Shown here: positions 1,159 through 22,220 of the stretch, one piece after another | How the letters are laid out: each line of letters begins with the position of its first letter | How positions within the stretch are numbered: position 1 is the stretch's first letter | Assembly (NCBI RefSeq): GCF_000003605.2 | Contig: NW_003122907.1 | Coordinates: 187,430 to 210,625, forward strand | Length of the DNA: 23,196 nucleotides | Direction: 5' to 3' | Source of the DNA: Saccoglossus kowalevskii | Taxonomy: Eukaryota; Hemichordata; Enteropneusta; Harrimaniidae | Translations under genes and position numbers: made by a program | Notes under the pieces: generated by a model | The model's input: the letters and a program-made list of their open reading frames with translations, nothing else | What the model was told of the DNA's origin: nothing | Database searches by the model: none

Positions 1159-7039
<5,881 letters not shown>

Positions 7040-7844
7040 GTTGCCCGATGTTACCTAAGAGAACTGAATCGCGTATGATTTCTGTTAATTTGCTGACTTT
7101 CTTTTTAATTACAAATGATATGCGATATCGCAATTATCAACAAGTCGGCTTTTAAGGAAAAAATAGAATAGTATGTCGCCTTGTAGGTGAATCAGTCACA
7201 CACAAATGTTGTGGCCCTGATTTCCTTCAAGTTCGTTATAAAATGTGAATTTCATTTTGCCAAATTACACATCCTAATACTGTAGTAAGAAAATGTTTCA
7301 GGATCATTACATGAATGTACGAATTCTATTGCGTCGATGACGTGCCAGTGAATTAGCACTTTCCCGGAAGTCGAAGATACGGCGTTTCGCATGCGCGCGC
7401 ATGTCGTTTTGGGGTATAACGTAAACTTGCACTCGTGATATTCTGTTTCTGGGTGTACCAATCGAAGTAACAAAAATTAAATTACCTTCCATCGTATATC
7501 AGCAAAATGACTTATTTGTATTTTCCGCCATGACAAAGCAGGAGTATTTTTGCACCCCAGTTTTTCTACTTCCGGGAAAGTGGTCTATACAACTAGTTGC
7601 GTCACAAGAAATGTCTATGCGTTAATTGCGAACTTAGAGGGCACACTGGATCTCTGGTTGACCGTCATTACAAAAAAATATGTTAAGATTTAATTAAAAT
7701 ATTACAATTGACTATTCTACTAAATACATTAAACCTCTGTGACGTCATAATAGCGTGACGTTACTGTAGCAAATATGTGATTACATCATATTTTTTCTTG
7801 ATATACATTAAAACAGAACACTATAGTCATTCGCTATCAAAATC

Positions 7845-8692: not shown

Positions 8693-11600
8693 CTGTGAGA
8701 AAATTTGGTAATACAGGTATTACCTTGATGAAGTGCCCCCATATCGAGACGGCTATGCAAACACAGGCATCGTTAATGTAATTCATACTAGTATCCTCGG
8801 GGGCGGACATCCGGGCATTTTCACCGCCTCGCAACCGGCGGCGGTGAAAAGAAAGGCCCAAAACTCGCAGAAAACGGTACTTTGGGATGATTGTTGAGAC
8901 TCCTCTGAACAGTGTAACAAGATTAGCCCTACGTGTGTAACATATATAAATTTGGTTGTTCGGGATTACTTCAAAGTTGAGTTTGTGTTGTTTTCTCGAA
9001 TTTTCACCGGCTCGACCGGCGTTCCACAGCAGCGCGCACAAAGCCCATAGAAATACGTGGTACAGTGGTGCGCGTCTTAGCAACGTAGAACGTCCGTGAC
9101 GTAGCTCCGCCCCCGAGGATACAATCCACCATCCCAATAAATCGCGCCCTCTAACGACGAACCGCTTTTGTGACGTATGCAATATTATTTGATCTGTGAT
9201 ACGTTATTTTTTTTCTACACAACCAAACAGTTGTATCACTTGCATCGATCTACGTCATTTCGAAGTCTTATAAACGTTTCGTCGCTAGAGGGCGCGATTT
9301 ATTGGAAAGTTGTATTATAGATGGGGGACAAGGGTTATTTTCGTTCAACGTAATTGCAATATTTTTGTGTTCGTACAACGTAAATTGAAAAAAATAAATT
9401 CCGTAATTCTGTAATCACATGCTAGACATACAACGTAATCAATCAAATATTTTTTTGTACACTGTAAAAATGTGTCATTTTTCTCGGTACGTACAAGAAT
9501 TTACATCCAAATAAAAAAAGTCGTAAAGAATAATCCAGAGAAATTACATTTTCGAAACTGTAACTAGATGACACAATTCACTGCAAAATTCAATTTTCAC
9601 TGTAAACACGTCTTTTTTTCCTTGTAAATTGTGAAAAGCCATTTTTTATTTCCCGTAAAACTGTACCAGCTACCCCCTTCCCCCCATTATACTATACACA
9701 TATCAGATATATGTTGTAGCTGTATGACGAAATGAACATCATCCCAAATCGTTACATATATTTATAATCCCTGAAAGTCAATCAAGCACACTTACGTCAG
9801 AAAACTCTTCTTCATGATCTAATTCATTGGGACTCAATTGATGATGGATTCGTGGTTGGAGTATTGCATCACCCAAGTTTAGCCCAAACCAAAACAAATT
9901 CATTGTCGACTGTAAAGAAACATACATTAATTGCAGTCGTCACGCAACGCCATAATCGCCATGCAGTGTCAGTCTTCACGTAGCGGCACAGTAAGATAAG
10001 ATAGACACTCTTTGAATACGTTGAGTCACAAGGAGCCCAAATACATTGGTAATGGTAGTTGGATGGACGTATTGGACATATAATGTGTATAAATAATGAA
10101 GTAAGAAATGTAACTTTTTTTCCCAAAAATAGAAAGGATAAACAGTCCAAAAAATGTTTAGTCATAAATCCAACTACATCATTGATTCCTCCCGTTGAAC
10201 TATGCATTGATGCCATTGCAACGATGATAAGATGGTGTTCAACCGTAGAAGGTGGCATTGTCAACAATACAAATGCACTTGCACCAATAAAAAATGTCAT
10301 AAATGCTACGTGACCGCATTTCGACCAATCAGTGCAAAGATATATTATATCATTTTCTATGCCAGTTGCATGGTAAAATACGCAACAATGAATGACACAG
10401 AAATAATATGATCTTGCTTGGTAAGTGTTTTTCATTGTTTACTACGTGACCGAATTCAGACCAATCATGCCATATACTACCCTTGTTGACGCTGTACATA
10501 AGACGAATAACTACTCACCAATGACACAGCTGTAGTTATCAGTGTACCGCCCGAACCACCAATAGAAAGCGACACGTTGCCTTGCCCATTGACAACTATA
10601 GCTGGGTCCATAGATGATAGGGGTCGTTTACCAGGTTCGATAAAGTTTACCGGTGATGGCGGCACTTCAAAAAAGTTAGTCGTATTTGGTGACGAGAAAT
10701 CGTCCATCTCATTGTTAAAAATGATACCCGTTCTTGATCCAACAACCTTTGAGCCGAAGCTGTAAATGGTGTACAACGACGTCGATAAATATAATGCAGA
10801 CAGTGAAAGGTTGTTCAGTTTATTGACGTTTGTTATTTCTGATACAGTGAATATGTGGCAGTCAATGATTTTAAAGGTCAATTTTAACCTTTTCACCACC
10901 AGACTTTCTCGCCCCAAATTTTCTTCACTTGAACCAACAGACAAAATTATAGTCAATTTTCAGTTTTTACTCAAAACATTTGCCTATCTTTTTTGTCTCA
11001 TTCCTCTGAAAGAAAGGACAGACTATAAAAGGGAATATTTTGTAAATTTGTGATGAAAAGAGGGATCTGGTGGTGAAAAATGTATAGAGTGTTCATGGTT
11101 ATATATGTAATGGTGTGCCATGTATTGTTATAATTATTACGTATTGATTTTACAAGTTAAATGTAATGAATTGTATTGTACTTGTCACTAATACTCTATC
11201 ACATGGTTACACGTATTGTGTACGTGTATTTATGGTGATTGTACTGAAATAAATAGTTACACTTACTATGTATTGATTGTACTGGTTATATGTACTGAAT
11301 TAAATAGTTACACTTACTATGTATTGATTGTACTGGTAACTGATACTGAATTAAATAGTTACACTTACTATGTATTGATTGTACTGGTAACTGATACTGA
11401 AATAAATAGTTACACTTACTATGTATTGATTGTACTGGTTATATGTACTGAATTAAATAGTTACACTTACTATGTATTGATTGTACTGGTAACTGATACT
11501 GAATTACCGCGTTGGTCAACTACAGACAGATGGGCAGTTCCATGATCTTCGACCAATGAAAAAGATGAATAATAATAATCAATGTCGTGGGTGGTGTTGT

Positions 11601-14600
11601 CATGAATCCGTTCACGTATTTCGGCTGCATACTCCTTTGACATCATTAAGTCGACAAGCTTAAACAAGATATCAAAATAAGAAACATTTTAATCACTAGA
11701 AATGGACAGCCGTCCAACGTCACCTTCTATCCACCTTAAAGCGGGGGAGTCGTCACATGCGCATATGTCATATGGCCATAGCGCGTCATTGTTTACAAAC
11801 AAGCGTCTACCCATGAGCCTTTGTGTTTTTAGCGTGTGTTGTCATCATCGCTTGGGACTCAATTCCCGCGTGCGCAGGCGACGACTCTCCCGCTTCAAGT
11901 TTGTAGTGGCCAATGATGTTCAGCTTATTGTGAGGGTATAAATGCGCACGTATATTTCCGCACTTTTTTCTATTGTTCACTTGTTAAAGTTATGACAGAA
12001 ATAGGACGTATACAGCAAAATCAACTTGTGAACATTCATGAAATTATGAATATTCATGTCTACAATTTGGATGTGATTAGCTTCAAAGACCGGTTACTGA
12101 CAATTGTTGGTAAGAAAATTCGCAACACACCGGGATAAATGGTTAGGGTTATATCACGCAGAGTGGAGAATATATTAATTGGTTAATTTGCATATTACTA
12201 AACAAAAGTAGAAATACCAGTTCCCCTGTTTATCAGATTATTCACAGTCGCTGTTTTTCGTAAAGCATAAGTGCCAAACTTTCCTTTATAATTTACACCC
12301 GGTATGTATTGATTGTGTGATTATTTTACAATACGCCAACAGACTACTAGTAGTCTATGATGTGTGAGAGAAGTATATAACAGTATTTGAATTACATCAC
12401 TGACGGTGTCTTCGTAGTCTTCGTCACCGAGTCCTGTTCTATGTGCAAATGCGTGTTTGAATGCTTCCGTGATGCGATGATACGTCGTCACGTTATCCAT
12501 TGCCATGGTCTTATTATCAAAATGATAACCTATGAAATATTAACGTACGAAGATAGACAATTTCAGTATATTTGCAATGGTATATTATATCAAATAAAGA
12601 TTGTTCATAAGGTAAATCACACTAATCATGTTAAAATTGTCCAAATTGTATTATGAGTCGAAGTTAATATAAGGGTATCAGCGTAAAGGAAAATCGGAAT
12701 CGCGCAAAAAATACAGGAATGTACGCCATTTTGTCAGTTTTTATGTTTGGTCCCACTAGTGAGGATTCCCCATATTTTAATTTGTTGTGTGGTAAAACGT
12801 CAACGTTTGGCCCATTTTTTTTAAACAAAACAGAATTTTTAATATGAAGTCCAATTTTCTGAAATATAAAACATGATATCAATCATACAAAACCTCTTTA
12901 AGCTAATTAATTTAAATTGTAAAATTATATTACAATGTATGATGCACCAGATTTAAAACAGAGTATTTGTTTATTAACTGGCAGAACCTATCACAGCACA
13001 TTTTTGCTGAAAATTATTATGAGTTTATCTGAATTCTTTAAATCTAAACAAACTAACCCTCCAATATGTTGAGAATGAAAGACAGAACAGCGCCACTAGC
13101 AGGCGGAGAAGGAGTGTACATTATCGAGTCGCCCATTCGTAATTCAAGTGGAGCTTTTTTCTTCGCTTCATAGTTCAATAAATCTTGAGATGTAATGATT
13201 CCTCCTGTAGAATAATAAATAATGTATATAGTGAAGAATCATAAATCGTATATCAAGGATTCAATAAATAAGGGTTCGCAAATTGCGCAAAATGCTGAGA
13301 TGATGACCCTAATTTGAGTCACGTGAATTGCGAGATTTCCAGGAACGGAAAATTGTTTAGTGGTCATCTAAAGCTGTTTGATAGTGTCCTTCACATAAAA
13401 TAGTCGATTTCTGGCATTCAAGTCTGTACTACGAGCGTTCACAAATGTCTGTTATAACATTGTACAGAAATACATTCGATTAACGCGCATCATGATGGCG
13501 GAACTAACGCGGAATAAGATCGTCATCGCAAAACATCAAGTGATCCTTTTTTTTGTTGTTGCTAAAATTAACATATTTTGTAGACCCTTATCTTATTAAA
13601 TATTGTCTGTGCAACTAGTAGATTTATTGAGGGTACTAAACACCTTGTATGTGTATGAAAATATATGCACGCGCGGTATAACACTGATCATTTTAAAAGT
13701 GGGTTCAGTGTATGTACGACTTAGTTGATTATGTCACATCACCTGCCCAGGTCAAACATAATGTCCGAGACAAGTCGGAAACTTCGGAAGTATTCGACAT
13801 TTCAACTTGTCACGAACCTTGCCCCGCTACTATTCCAACCGAGTCCTATATCTATGTCTTCATCAACAAGTTGGGCGTTCTAGCCTGAATATGATTTGAA
13901 ATAGATTAATTTGAATCTTTCAAACTATGCCTACCTCTTTCCTGAATATCTGCTACAACGGCTTCCGCAGTTACCCCACTGTAAAACTCCATTGCACCAC
14001 GATCGGCGATTAGTTGCAACGTTGCTGCCAACTTCTTCATGACGCAAATGTCCCCCTCTTTCAGTATTTCCCCATCGTCCCCCACGAAATATTCACTGAA
14101 TGAGTATAAATACGTGTTATTGACCAATCAATCGAGCCCCTTCCAATATAAAAGAGACGATGTGAATAACGTTGAATATTACAAAATAAATGATTGCTGT
14201 GATTTGTCGTAAACTAAGAACTATGTTTTTACAACAATATTTATAATGTGCAAAACAATAAAAATACCAGTGCGCTTGCGATTTAAATCACTTCTACGTA
14301 TGGGCGCGTATCTGGCGCATGCGTATTGGTGTTTATTATTTAATGTATTAAAAGGTTTTATTTTACGATAACACATATCGTACTATATTTCTTATAAAGA
14401 TGTAATATCAAACCCGATGTCAGAATTATTTTAGAACATACCTTTGAAGTGTGGGCTCCGTGATCGAAACAACGACTTAATGATACCGGGAGGGTTCACA
14501 ATTGAAATTTATAATATTTTATAGATTTAAAAACAAACCACTAGAAATCATACCCAGTGTCGATATTTCAATTTCTCAGCCTTTTTATTTTTGCATTTTT

Positions 14601-17600
14601 TATAGATATATTTACTTGGAACAAAGAAAGAAGAAAAGAAACAAACAAACACACATACAAATATACAAACACAAAAACAAACCACGTGTATTCAGAATAA
14701 TACAATGTTAAGCTGTTCGATTGCTGGTATCCTTGGCATCTTACTTTTAAAGGAAATAGCACCGGTTTCCGATTAATAAGCTAGGGTTCACTGATGGCGA
14801 CAATTTGCACTGAATTTTAGCAAAATACTCTACCTCAAACCTTCGTCCGCTAAAATAGTATCATTATATTGCCGTATTGCTTTTGCTAGAGGTGCTCCTA
14901 CTACGAACCCATTCGCGGCCAGTTCGATAGTTGGCTCAAACAGTTTGTCCCATGGTATCAGTCCCCATCTCTGATGAGCCGTCCACATACCATGCAGTTC
15001 GCCGGGCACAGCAATAGCTAAACCACCTATACACACACAAAAATAAACTTGTTGTCATCATGTTTTCCCACATTTCTATACATAAATAAAGCACGTGTTT
15101 TATAATATTGTTTTGCCAATCTCAACAAAACTTGGAATACTACATTATCACACATTTCGTGCATAAATGAAATAAACATGAACAAAATAATTCCATTGTG
15201 AAAAAATAATTCCATTGTGAAAAAATAATTCCGTTTTGAATAAATAACGTAGCGTATTCATTCAATATCGAGCGAATATTCAGCTGTGTCCTACAAGAAC
15301 AAAATGACGAATTATAATCCAAAGTATTTACAATATGCAGTATTAAAAAGTACATGTTCTCATCTGCATTGTATTTGTATGTACGAGTGAGACCTATAAT
15401 ATTCACCTGTTGTTGATGCATCTTCATCTGGGTGATTGGAAAACATGTCGTATGTGGAATTTAGTGGGGCTGTCTCTCTTGCATCGATTACTTCAGTGAC
15501 ACCCCATCGTTTCATGTGTATAACCATAAAGTTTCCTCCGCCTATACCGGTGCTATGACAATTGTGGAGACCCACACACAATAACGCCGCAATAGCCGCG
15601 TCTACTGCGGAGCCATTTTGTTTTAACATTTCACTGTAAAAACAAACACGTTTGTGAAAAGGAGGTTATCGTCACAATCAATGTGTCCAATGTGACGTGT
15701 ACAACGCGCCTAAAATCCTAAAATACATTGTTTACTTGACATTTTACATCGCGTTGCACATCGAACCCGACCTTTCAAATAATCAACGTGTTTGTCTCCG
15801 TGGCAACACGTAGAAACAAAACGTAAAATAAAAGGAACGCACACCAGGGACGTACTAGCTGTTTCAACAAACATTTTAACTTACTATTGATCACGAGATG
15901 ATAACCATAGAGACTGTGTATACGAGGATTTGCAACATAATGTTGTTGATAAATATCATTCTCACCAAAAATGTGCTGATGGTGACTGCCTGGTATTAAA
16001 AATATTTTTAACACAGAGATTTCAAATGAATATTTTTCAATCCCTGTTTGATATGCAGCACAACAATTCTAGGAAATATCATACAACTTACTTTCCAATA
16101 AATGAACAGTTAGCTGCATCAGTGGCAATGGCTGCGTTTTCGTAGATCTCATAATTTGTTAATTCATCAATCACTTCAGGCTCTTCTTCGGGTCTGAACG
16201 CTATACCGATGAATATTCCAGCAATGACTGCCCCGACAAATATCCCGAGCATGAGCAGACAGAAAGGACGGTCAGTCCATCTTCTATTATATATAAAAAA
16301 CACATTTTCGCAGTTAGCAGTGAACGATATATCATATTTTGCTCATGTGCATATTCTCCTGTCTGTCATTTTCCACTATTGTGTATGCGTATGGAAGATT
16401 GGATAAATAAATACCGGTGGACGCTGTCCAATCTTAACAACCATCCATATGTTTCGTATTTATATATTAATAATGTACTTTGACAAGAAAGAAAGAAATA
16501 CGTCATTGTTGGAGCAAAAACATTTCTTCTTTGCATGAATTATAAATGAAACTGTGAAACATTGCATAGAAATTACCAGATTTCAAACTATTCAATAACC
16601 GATAATCAGTTTACACCTCTACTTCCTAGATTTTGGGTATGTTCCATGCACGATTCTAGTGTTCTCTTTTCGAACTGCGCATAATTAGATAACGTTCCGA
16701 AGAGTCTCTACCTTTTCTGGGAATGTTATAAATTTTGTGATCGCACTAATGAAAACACCTGTGGATAACTGTTTTCCGGACATTAATAAATTGTTTTTAA
16801 AATTGCATTGGCATTTTTGTCAGCTCTTAATTGTAAAATCACTCAAAAAAAACAACAACACCAGGCTGCCACCACTATTAAAACGTGATTGTTTGAGTTC
16901 AGATATATACCTCACGTCTTTGAAATGCACTAGTCAAACTTGGTAGGGTGATAAGTTTCGCGATATGTTAGGAATACATATAGATATAAATACACACATT
17001 GGACATAAAGAGGTATTTTAAACATACTGAAAATAGGTTTTACAACATTCATTTAAAGATTTGGATTTCAGCTCTAGCTGAACACAGCTGTTGAGTTTGT
17101 TAATTCTCTGTGGTTCTTCAGTTCTAAAAAGGAATATAGTCCCCTACCCTCTACGCGTCTGAGTTTATTGTTGTTGTCATTGACAACAACACAACTGAAA
17201 AGCATATCCGCAATATTATGCCCCTATAATTAAAATTAAGCAAAACTAGATAAAAACGAGAAATTATATGTCTAGATGTTCAGCAAAAGAATCCCCACTG
17301 TAGAAACTATAGCTTCCTAAAATTAGTGTCACGTCCCCAGCATGTACAAGTATCGGCATGTGTATCGATGTTCTGACAAGTGGGTGATACGTAAATGATA
17401 ATATGATACATTCTTCGTTACTACGAGAATCTTAGCACTGATATAATCCGTTGTTGATAATCCGATCAAGAACATGTCGACAAGAGAAGTACAAATAAAA
17501 CAAAACACACACCTAAATGTAGACTGGCGCAAAAAAATTGTTAGCGCGAAATCCCCTGTAACTGCGAAAACACCCCGACTGGTTTATTCTACATGGTCCT

Positions 17601-19461: not shown

Positions 19462-19541
<80 letters not shown>
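19462..19541. repeat. (AAT)n microsatellite
   Basis: About 80 nt of uninterrupted ATA/AAT triplets (around 26 copies). It lies about 200 bp upstream of the gene B TATA box. The poly-Tyr frame on the - strand is an artefact of it. Confidence 0.97.
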
Positions 19542-20579: not shown

Positions 20580-22220
20580 TACTGGGTTCAAAATATGTCT
20601 GGAACTTTGCAAAAGTGAGGTTTATAATCACTGTTGCTAAGTTGGATTTCATGATTAATTTATCACGAGTAGGATTATGATATGCCAAATATATTTTGTA
20701 ATCGATGTGGTTATTGAGATATAAAGGGCACTCGAGTACGAAATGGAATTCGTTGTCGATTGCATTTAACGAGCAAAACGCACATGTCTGTGGTTACCAA
20801 CAGGCATTTTTTTTACTCTAACATACTTTTGAAATTACGATACGTACGTAGTACGTCACTAGCGCACACTTCACTGTACCGCTATTGTTTATATCAATCA
20901 GTTACCCGCTGTCTGAATCCGCCACGAATAACTTAACATTTCTTATATCCTTAGCAAGTCGCGCAACGCCGAATCCATACTAAATAGAATATTTTAAATT
21001 TCTGTTGCCCATGGTATATTCATATTTGTGTCCGAATTTTACATCAATTTATACGCTTCTTTTGCAATTCTCGATTCCGGCAGTTCAGATAAGTATAACC
21101 AAAAATTTATACATTCGGCTGTTTACTTTACATCAATTGGTGTTCTACTCCAACACTCCCCCAGTGCTGATTCATGACATGTTTGCACTACCTAAATTCC
21201 CAACCCCTAGAACGTGTTTACAATACTTTAATGTACCCGCTCTGTTTTCATGTATTTGCGGAAACCCTATATTTCAGCACCGTGCAAATGGATAAGCGTG
21301 ATCAGCATATCGACGAATTTAAAGTAATCTCTAATTTAATATCCGCAAGTTTACGTTGAAATGTTAACAGAAAAAACATTGCATTCCGTGCTTGAACAGC
21401 TTTCGACAAGTTATTTCTACATGATAACAAACCAATATATTTGTAAGAGTTTACCACTTCAATACATACCGCATTCATGGACAATTTTCCTTACGCGCAT
21501 TATGCCCCCCCCCCCTCCGCGAAACACAATAATTTTAGTTTGCGTCAGGTTAACTCTTAGTTTTTATTTGATACAAAAACATTGTAAAATATCAATTAGT
21601 CGCTGTAAACTAGCAATTATATCTAGCTAACTAGCAAACATAACATCGTCTGCATATAGCAGGGAAATCAAATTAAACATTTTCTTGGTCAACTCCCAGT
21701 GCACCTCATTGTAACCTGCACTCAAAACCATTTTATATAATTCGGCAATAATAAGGAGAAGATGACAGAACGTAGAATACTACCCTGTCTCCCACCAATA
21801 CTAGTTACATAATCAGAGGTACCACTTTTAATTTTGATACACTACATCACAATTGCTAGCATCTTACCCATAATGCCTATATTGTTTATTAGTTTGAAGA
21901 AGATACCGGTGGTCCATAGAGTCAAAAGCTTTGAGCAAAAACAAAACAGAAATACAATAAAACTTTCCCTTTTTCTTCCACAGATATTTTCGAAGGATAG
22001 CATAAAGAACGAATATATTGTCTGCAGTATTTTCTGCTTGTCTACCTGAAATTGTCCCAGTATTTATTATTTTCCCATTCGCATTCGAAAATTTCACCAA
22101 ATACACTCCAAACAGAGTAATTCCTTTATGATTATTTGGATCTGATTCTAATTCTGTTTTGAATATTGGGATAATTATTCCACGAGACCAGCCTTTGGCG
22201 TTCATTTACAACGGATTCAA
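20580..22220 (-). mobile_element. degenerate 5'-truncated LINE (reverse transcriptase remnant)
   Basis: Translated in pieces on the - strand it shows, in order, WSRGIIIPIFK with DPNNHKGITLFGV (22200-22090), DNIFVLYAILRKYLWKKKGK and LKAFDSMDH (22050-21900), the catalytic box LLYADDVMFAS (YADD at 21656-21645), YKYIGLLS (about 21450), YCKHVLGVGNLGSANMS (about 21220-21170), AKEAYKLM and NIPWAT (about 21065-21005), and a C-terminal C-x2-C...NEFHFVLECPLYL motif (about 20790-20730). These are the RT and C-terminal region of a non-LTR retrotransposon. Several stops and frame changes make it inactive. No N-terminal or endonuclease part is seen, which fits the 5' truncation usual for LINE copies. Confidence 0.85.

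Follow-up and report, generated by a model that had tools for sequence, protein, structure and literature searches.

The closest described counterpart of the repeat analysed here is found in the human gene IFI6, where two downstream repeat units act as donors, as stated in the available part of that report (PMC4526556). In human genes of segmental duplications, splicing is altered by variable internal tandem repeats that lie over the borders of exons and introns, according to the accessible sections of a second study (PMC2812944). Intron gain by tandem duplication is also on record: as far as the available portions of the two papers go, the duplication crossed the border of an intron and an exon in potato RdRp (PMC4974935) and involved 24-nt repeats in fission yeasts (PMC3629103).

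In the present work we analysed a 51-bp tandem array at the border between exon 8 and intron 8 of a gamma-glutamyltranspeptidase (GGT) gene. An initial annotation of this DNA had called it unusual that a tandem repeat begins inside a conserved coding exon and carries its donor into the intron. This is a fair description of the arrangement, but human IFI6 provides a direct precedent for it. Among the best 10 of 13 matches of a literature search, with most subscription papers lying outside its scope, none paired gamma-glutamyl with minisatellite.

Two GGT genes arranged tail to tail

The window, that is the whole stretch of DNA that was analysed (23,196 nt), corresponds to positions 187430–210625 of contig C1549 in a genome of 572 Mb and 4830 contigs. 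It contains two GGT genes that lie tail to tail, gene A on the plus strand and gene B on the minus strand (Table 1). For gene B the exon numbers of the initial annotation were kept; its first exon lacks a defined position, and a plausible last exon is readable by eye within 8719–8546. When exons 2–10 are joined at the borders read here, they give a single frame of 531 aa with 0 stops, the product of which matches Pfam PF01019 (E 1.5e-167, residues 64–530). With this frame, a reading of gene B as a pseudogene is unsupported, and to judge from its sequence gene B has apparently remained functional with the array in place. Its best relatives among solved structures are those of human GGT1. Position 1 of the human light chain (4gg2_B) aligns to residue 391 of gene B, a Thr, which we take to be the counterpart of the catalytic Thr at which the human light chain begins. 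The coding part that is repeated in the array comprises residues 402–413 and lies 11 residues past Thr 391.

Table 1. Positions of the genes, exons, introns and repeat copies within the window
Feature	Position	Strand	Description
GGT gene A	coding exons from about 1300; stop codon ends 7039	+	exons read by eye
GGT gene B	about 16280 down to 8546	-	
Gene B exon 8	11471..11658	-	188 nt; carries the catalytic Thr region
Gene B intron 8	10760..11470	-	711 nt with donor 1
Gene B exon 9	10519..10759	-	in frame from donor 1 only, among the five donors
Copy 1	11455..11505	-	35 nt of exon (11505-11471) followed by 16 nt of intron; donor GT 11470
Copy 2	11404..11454	-	type Y; differs from copy 1 at 5 clustered positions; donor GT 11419
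Copy 3	11353..11403	-	1 difference to copy 1; donor GT 11368
Copy 4	11302..11352	-	identical to copy 1; donor GT 11317
Copy 5	11251..11301	-	identical to copy 2; donor GT 11266
Decayed older 51-bp copies	11080..11250	-	without GTAAGT
Homologous intron of paralogue A	5709..5812	+	104 nt; matches gene B intron 8 in position and phase; 51-bp array absent

Several other repeats and elements were observed in the window. The intron between exons 3 and 4 of gene B holds a 19-bp tandem repeat of 3.6 copies (15179–15247), and a perfect ATA microsatellite of 26 units is located at 19463–19541. Intron 9 of gene A contains a MITE-like element (6278–6585) with 44-nt inverted arms that are 89% complementary and 220 nt apart. 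By eye, intron 7 of gene B has ends resembling this element at about 11740–11900; an inverted-repeat scan of the intron found no arm pair of at least 16 nt there. A second inverted-repeat element with 19-nt arms, 95% complementary, lies downstream of gene A (7357–7582). On the minus strand, an open frame at 21864–22205 resembles part of a reverse transcriptase by eye.

A tandem array across the exon 8/intron 8 border

Tandem Repeats Finder reports an array at 11242–11506 with a period of 51, 5.2 copies and 93% matches. Read on the minus strand from 11505 to 11251, it consists of five copies of a unit which, as the initial annotation had claimed, is made of the end of the exon (35 nt) and the start of the intron (16 nt). 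The split becomes 36 and 15 nt, the register used earlier, when the unit is taken to start one base before. Copy 1 is followed by four further copies that are indeed near-identical to it, the mismatches to copy 1 being 0, 5, 1, 0 and 5 of 51 for copies 1–5, and all five GTAAGTG donors are found exactly where they had been placed (Table 1). Variation among the copies is confined to unit position 2 and to five of the six positions 10–15. Copies 1–2 equal copies 4–5 in sequence. Self-identity of the young array is complete at lag 153 (112/112) in comparison to 196/214 at lag 51, which points to a recent duplication or conversion of 153 bp over older steps of 51 bp.

Beyond copy 5 the array continues in decayed 51-bp copies down to about 11080. 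These are absent from the earlier description and are new here. When the region below copy 5 (11250–10951) was compared with the array it scored 119; dinucleotide shuffles had a mean of 72 and a maximum of 109, and 0 of 300 reached the observed score. The tail beyond 11199 is weakly supported by itself, with 6 of 300 shuffles being as good. One old copy can be aligned without gaps (11172–11122) and is identical to copy 2 at 39 and to copy 1 at 35 of its 51 positions. No GTAAGT is present between copy 5 and exon 9. Young copies on the exon side together with a decayed tail suggest that expansion or conversion happened in two or more layers. Neither the distal intron 8 sequence (174/300 shuffles as good) nor the upstream exon (264/300) could be accepted as more copies.

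By sequence only the first of the five donors is productive

The copy-1 donor had been assumed to mark the true end of exon 8. By sequence this holds: from it the frame runs without a stop into the exon at 10759, and paralogue A has an intron at the same codon and in the same phase. Splicing from donor 1 gives STINT-Y-FGSK across the junction of exons 8 and 9, where the intron divides the Tyr codon as TA/C in phase 2. The corresponding junction of paralogue A reads CTGTA/GTATGTG.

It had also been claimed that use of any later donor would insert an immediate TAG TAA, and the sequence bears this out. Passing over the donor of paralogue A likewise yields a stop (TAG TAT). Since any phase-2 TA/GT junction gives TAG if its donor is passed, the stop reflects the position of the intron and not the array. 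One of the five donor choices, donor 1, is productive. For donors 2–5 the stop lies 50, 101, 152 and 203 nt ahead of the exon 8/9 junction; as this junction and later ones follow downstream, nonsense-mediated decay would be expected for the resulting transcripts.

The array in its gene family and in the genome

The 361-bp array region was searched against its own genome, represented by a single assembly, with very common words skipped and gave one match only. Copy 1 is coding sequence, and its TSTIN is common to gene A and the C2270 locus, so the unit is most likely derived from the exon. A dispersed satellite family was rejected on account of the single match and this likely exonic origin.

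A search of the genome with the exon-8 peptide, up to E 10, resulted in five matches: gene B, gene A and the loci on C2270, C997 and C4612. The C4612 match is weak (E 0.0992) and contains a stop. No tandem array was seen at the exon in the three loci outside the window, with 1.5 kb analysed on each side. For intron 8 of paralogue A we saw no relation to the array (score 31, shuffle mean 29, 114/300 as good). This intron carries a short tandem repeat of 10 bp and 3.5 copies (5738–5772), unrelated to that of gene B. The three loci outside the window (L004, L005 and L006) are GGT-like. L005 holds one 15-bp repeat, which is unrelated to the array, and its intron seemingly lies a few codons earlier (after ...SIT); at the sequence level this hints at GGT subfamilies with differing intron positions.

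Three GTAAGT words at a spacing of 26–56 nt were matched 11,911 times genome-wide (6341 + 5570), counted as overlapping matches so that the number of arrays is lower, and the matches listed were mostly tandem repeats. The reversed pattern, used as a control, gave more matches (16232 + 17577). Donor-like words in tandem repeats are therefore common in this genome, without excess over the control. The count covers all matches irrespective of exon overlap.

Origin of the array and role of the extra donors

We consider it probable that the array is a minisatellite of the ordinary sort that arose where an exon meets its intron, and that its extra donors are passengers. In such a scenario a 51-bp segment reaching from the last part of exon 8 into intron 8 would have been duplicated in tandem, presumably by slippage or unequal exchange, and the array would then have expanded, been homogenised and partly decayed. 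Coding constraint and the need for a donor would have kept copy 1, the later copies being carried along as intronic passengers with an inherited donor. Functional mRNA would be made from donor 1, and donors 2–5 would give at most some transcripts whose reading frame stops immediately (STINT-stop) and that are open to nonsense-mediated decay. We infer that the extra donors lack a selected role.

Three observations count against this explanation. First, GTAAGTG is perfect in all five copies, their differences being limited to other unit positions. This could be compatible with selection on the donors, but recent expansion accounts for it too. Second, SRSF1 promotes the choice of intron-proximal donors and hnRNP A1 that of intron-distal ones, according to the available part of the source (PMC5585400). 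From the preference of SRSF1 one would expect use of donor 5 and not of donor 1, and as the two proteins have opposite preferences, use of donor 1 does not follow from the identity of the donors. Older work on the competition between equal donors is in line with intron-proximal choice. Third, the decayed tail beyond 11199 is weakly supported when taken by itself.

The alternative that survives best, although we regard it as unlikely, is that the array works as a dial of unproductive splicing. U1 would bind to several equal donors, donors 2–5 would lead to decay, and the output of GGT-B would be set by the number of copies or by SR/hnRNP levels. The initial annotation had suggested that the choice of site might tune how much functional enzyme is made or trigger decay. 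It had also spoken of five equal 5' splice sites, and this is true of the sequence, all five donors being identical from −20 to +17. Such identity would suit a dial, as would the restriction of productive splicing to donor 1 and the distance of 50–203 nt that separates the stops of donors 2–5 from the exon 8/9 junction downstream of them. The U1 pairing of the array donors, −7.5 kcal/mol, also exceeds that of the homologous donor of paralogue A (−3.7 kcal/mol) and is mid-range among the 17 other donors read in genes A and B, some A borders of which are doubtful (e.g. exon 3), with 8/17 weaker and 9/17 stronger. However, none of the other four family matches showed the array, and the decayed copies are without GTAAGT. 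RNA structure could be rejected as an explanation, folding of the array RNA being unremarkable (z −0.65, 23/100 shuffles as stable). The abundance of spaced GTAAGT matches in the genome speaks against a dedicated function in general. Still less likely in our view is a graded off-switch for GGT-B that varies with copy number, in which each extra copy would divert pre-mRNA to decay and homogenisation with copy 1 would equalise the donors.

We also considered the array as a nursery of introns or exons, in which the donor of a unit and acceptor-like AGs would produce short cryptic exons or shifted introns; this appears very doubtful. New introns are known to arise when a border is duplicated in tandem, as described in the accessible parts of two reports (PMC4974935; PMC3629103). 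A matrix built from all 15 acceptors read in genes A and B gives the unit-start AGs scores of 4.0 or 5.8, which fall within the range of the acceptors' own left-out scores (−6.1 to 10.4). Among the 47 isoforms with a single cryptic exon within the array, three are in frame, each through a 15-nt exon that adds five residues; the AGs of these exons score 3.1, 3.1 and −3.2. The remaining 44 isoforms are nonproductive, however, and the best other AG of intron 8, located outside the array, scores higher than the unit starts (7.6). Furthermore the matrix rests on few acceptors and its scores are unstable: when gene A exon 7 is left out, so that 14 acceptors are used, they shift by up to about 3.5, the unit-start AGs then having 2.7 to 4.4 and those of the in-frame 15-nt exons −0.4, −0.4 and −5.6. 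Exons of 15 nt are rare, which counts against this possibility as well.

An assembly artefact or collapse, with a wrong copy number in the reference or no array at all, is the least probable reading: the exact identity at lag 153 could come from a mis-join, but a simple mis-join would not give structured differences (three copy types) that grade into decayed copies, and 265 bp are short relative to long reads.

Comparison with known systems

The locus is a natural experiment on the competition between 5' splice sites, since five identical donors are placed 51 nt apart and, of these five, the most intron-distal one alone gives rise to full-length protein. Nearly exclusive use of donor 1 would mean that exon definition or position outweighs identical sequence. 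Otherwise the minisatellite would be costing or tuning enzyme output. The presence of young and decayed copies side by side in addition provides a view of the turnover of an exon-edge minisatellite.

Classified by its sequence, the gene B repeat is probably an IFI6-type minisatellite: a tandem array at the edge of an exon with a donor in each unit, the first donor being the genuine exon end. The likeness to IFI6 consists in this donor per unit, through which downstream copies can be alternative donors. IFI6 units are about 12 bp long and the isoforms stay translatable. In gene B, in contrast, a unit of 51 bp repeats 35 nt of a conserved coding exon and any later donor leads to an immediate stop. 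The human segmental-duplication genes, so far as the available sections describe them, have variable repeats, RNA-supported novel introns and recent paralogues, whereas the gene B array is known from sequence and its intron is common to paralogue A. In potato RdRp and fission yeasts splice signals were likewise copied by tandem duplication; as covered by the accessible portions of those papers, a new intron was formed there, while in gene B an existing intron was lengthened and its donor multiplied. Gene B therefore adds two twists to a known kind of exon-edge minisatellite, namely a long conserved coding part within the unit and extra donors that are all nonproductive.
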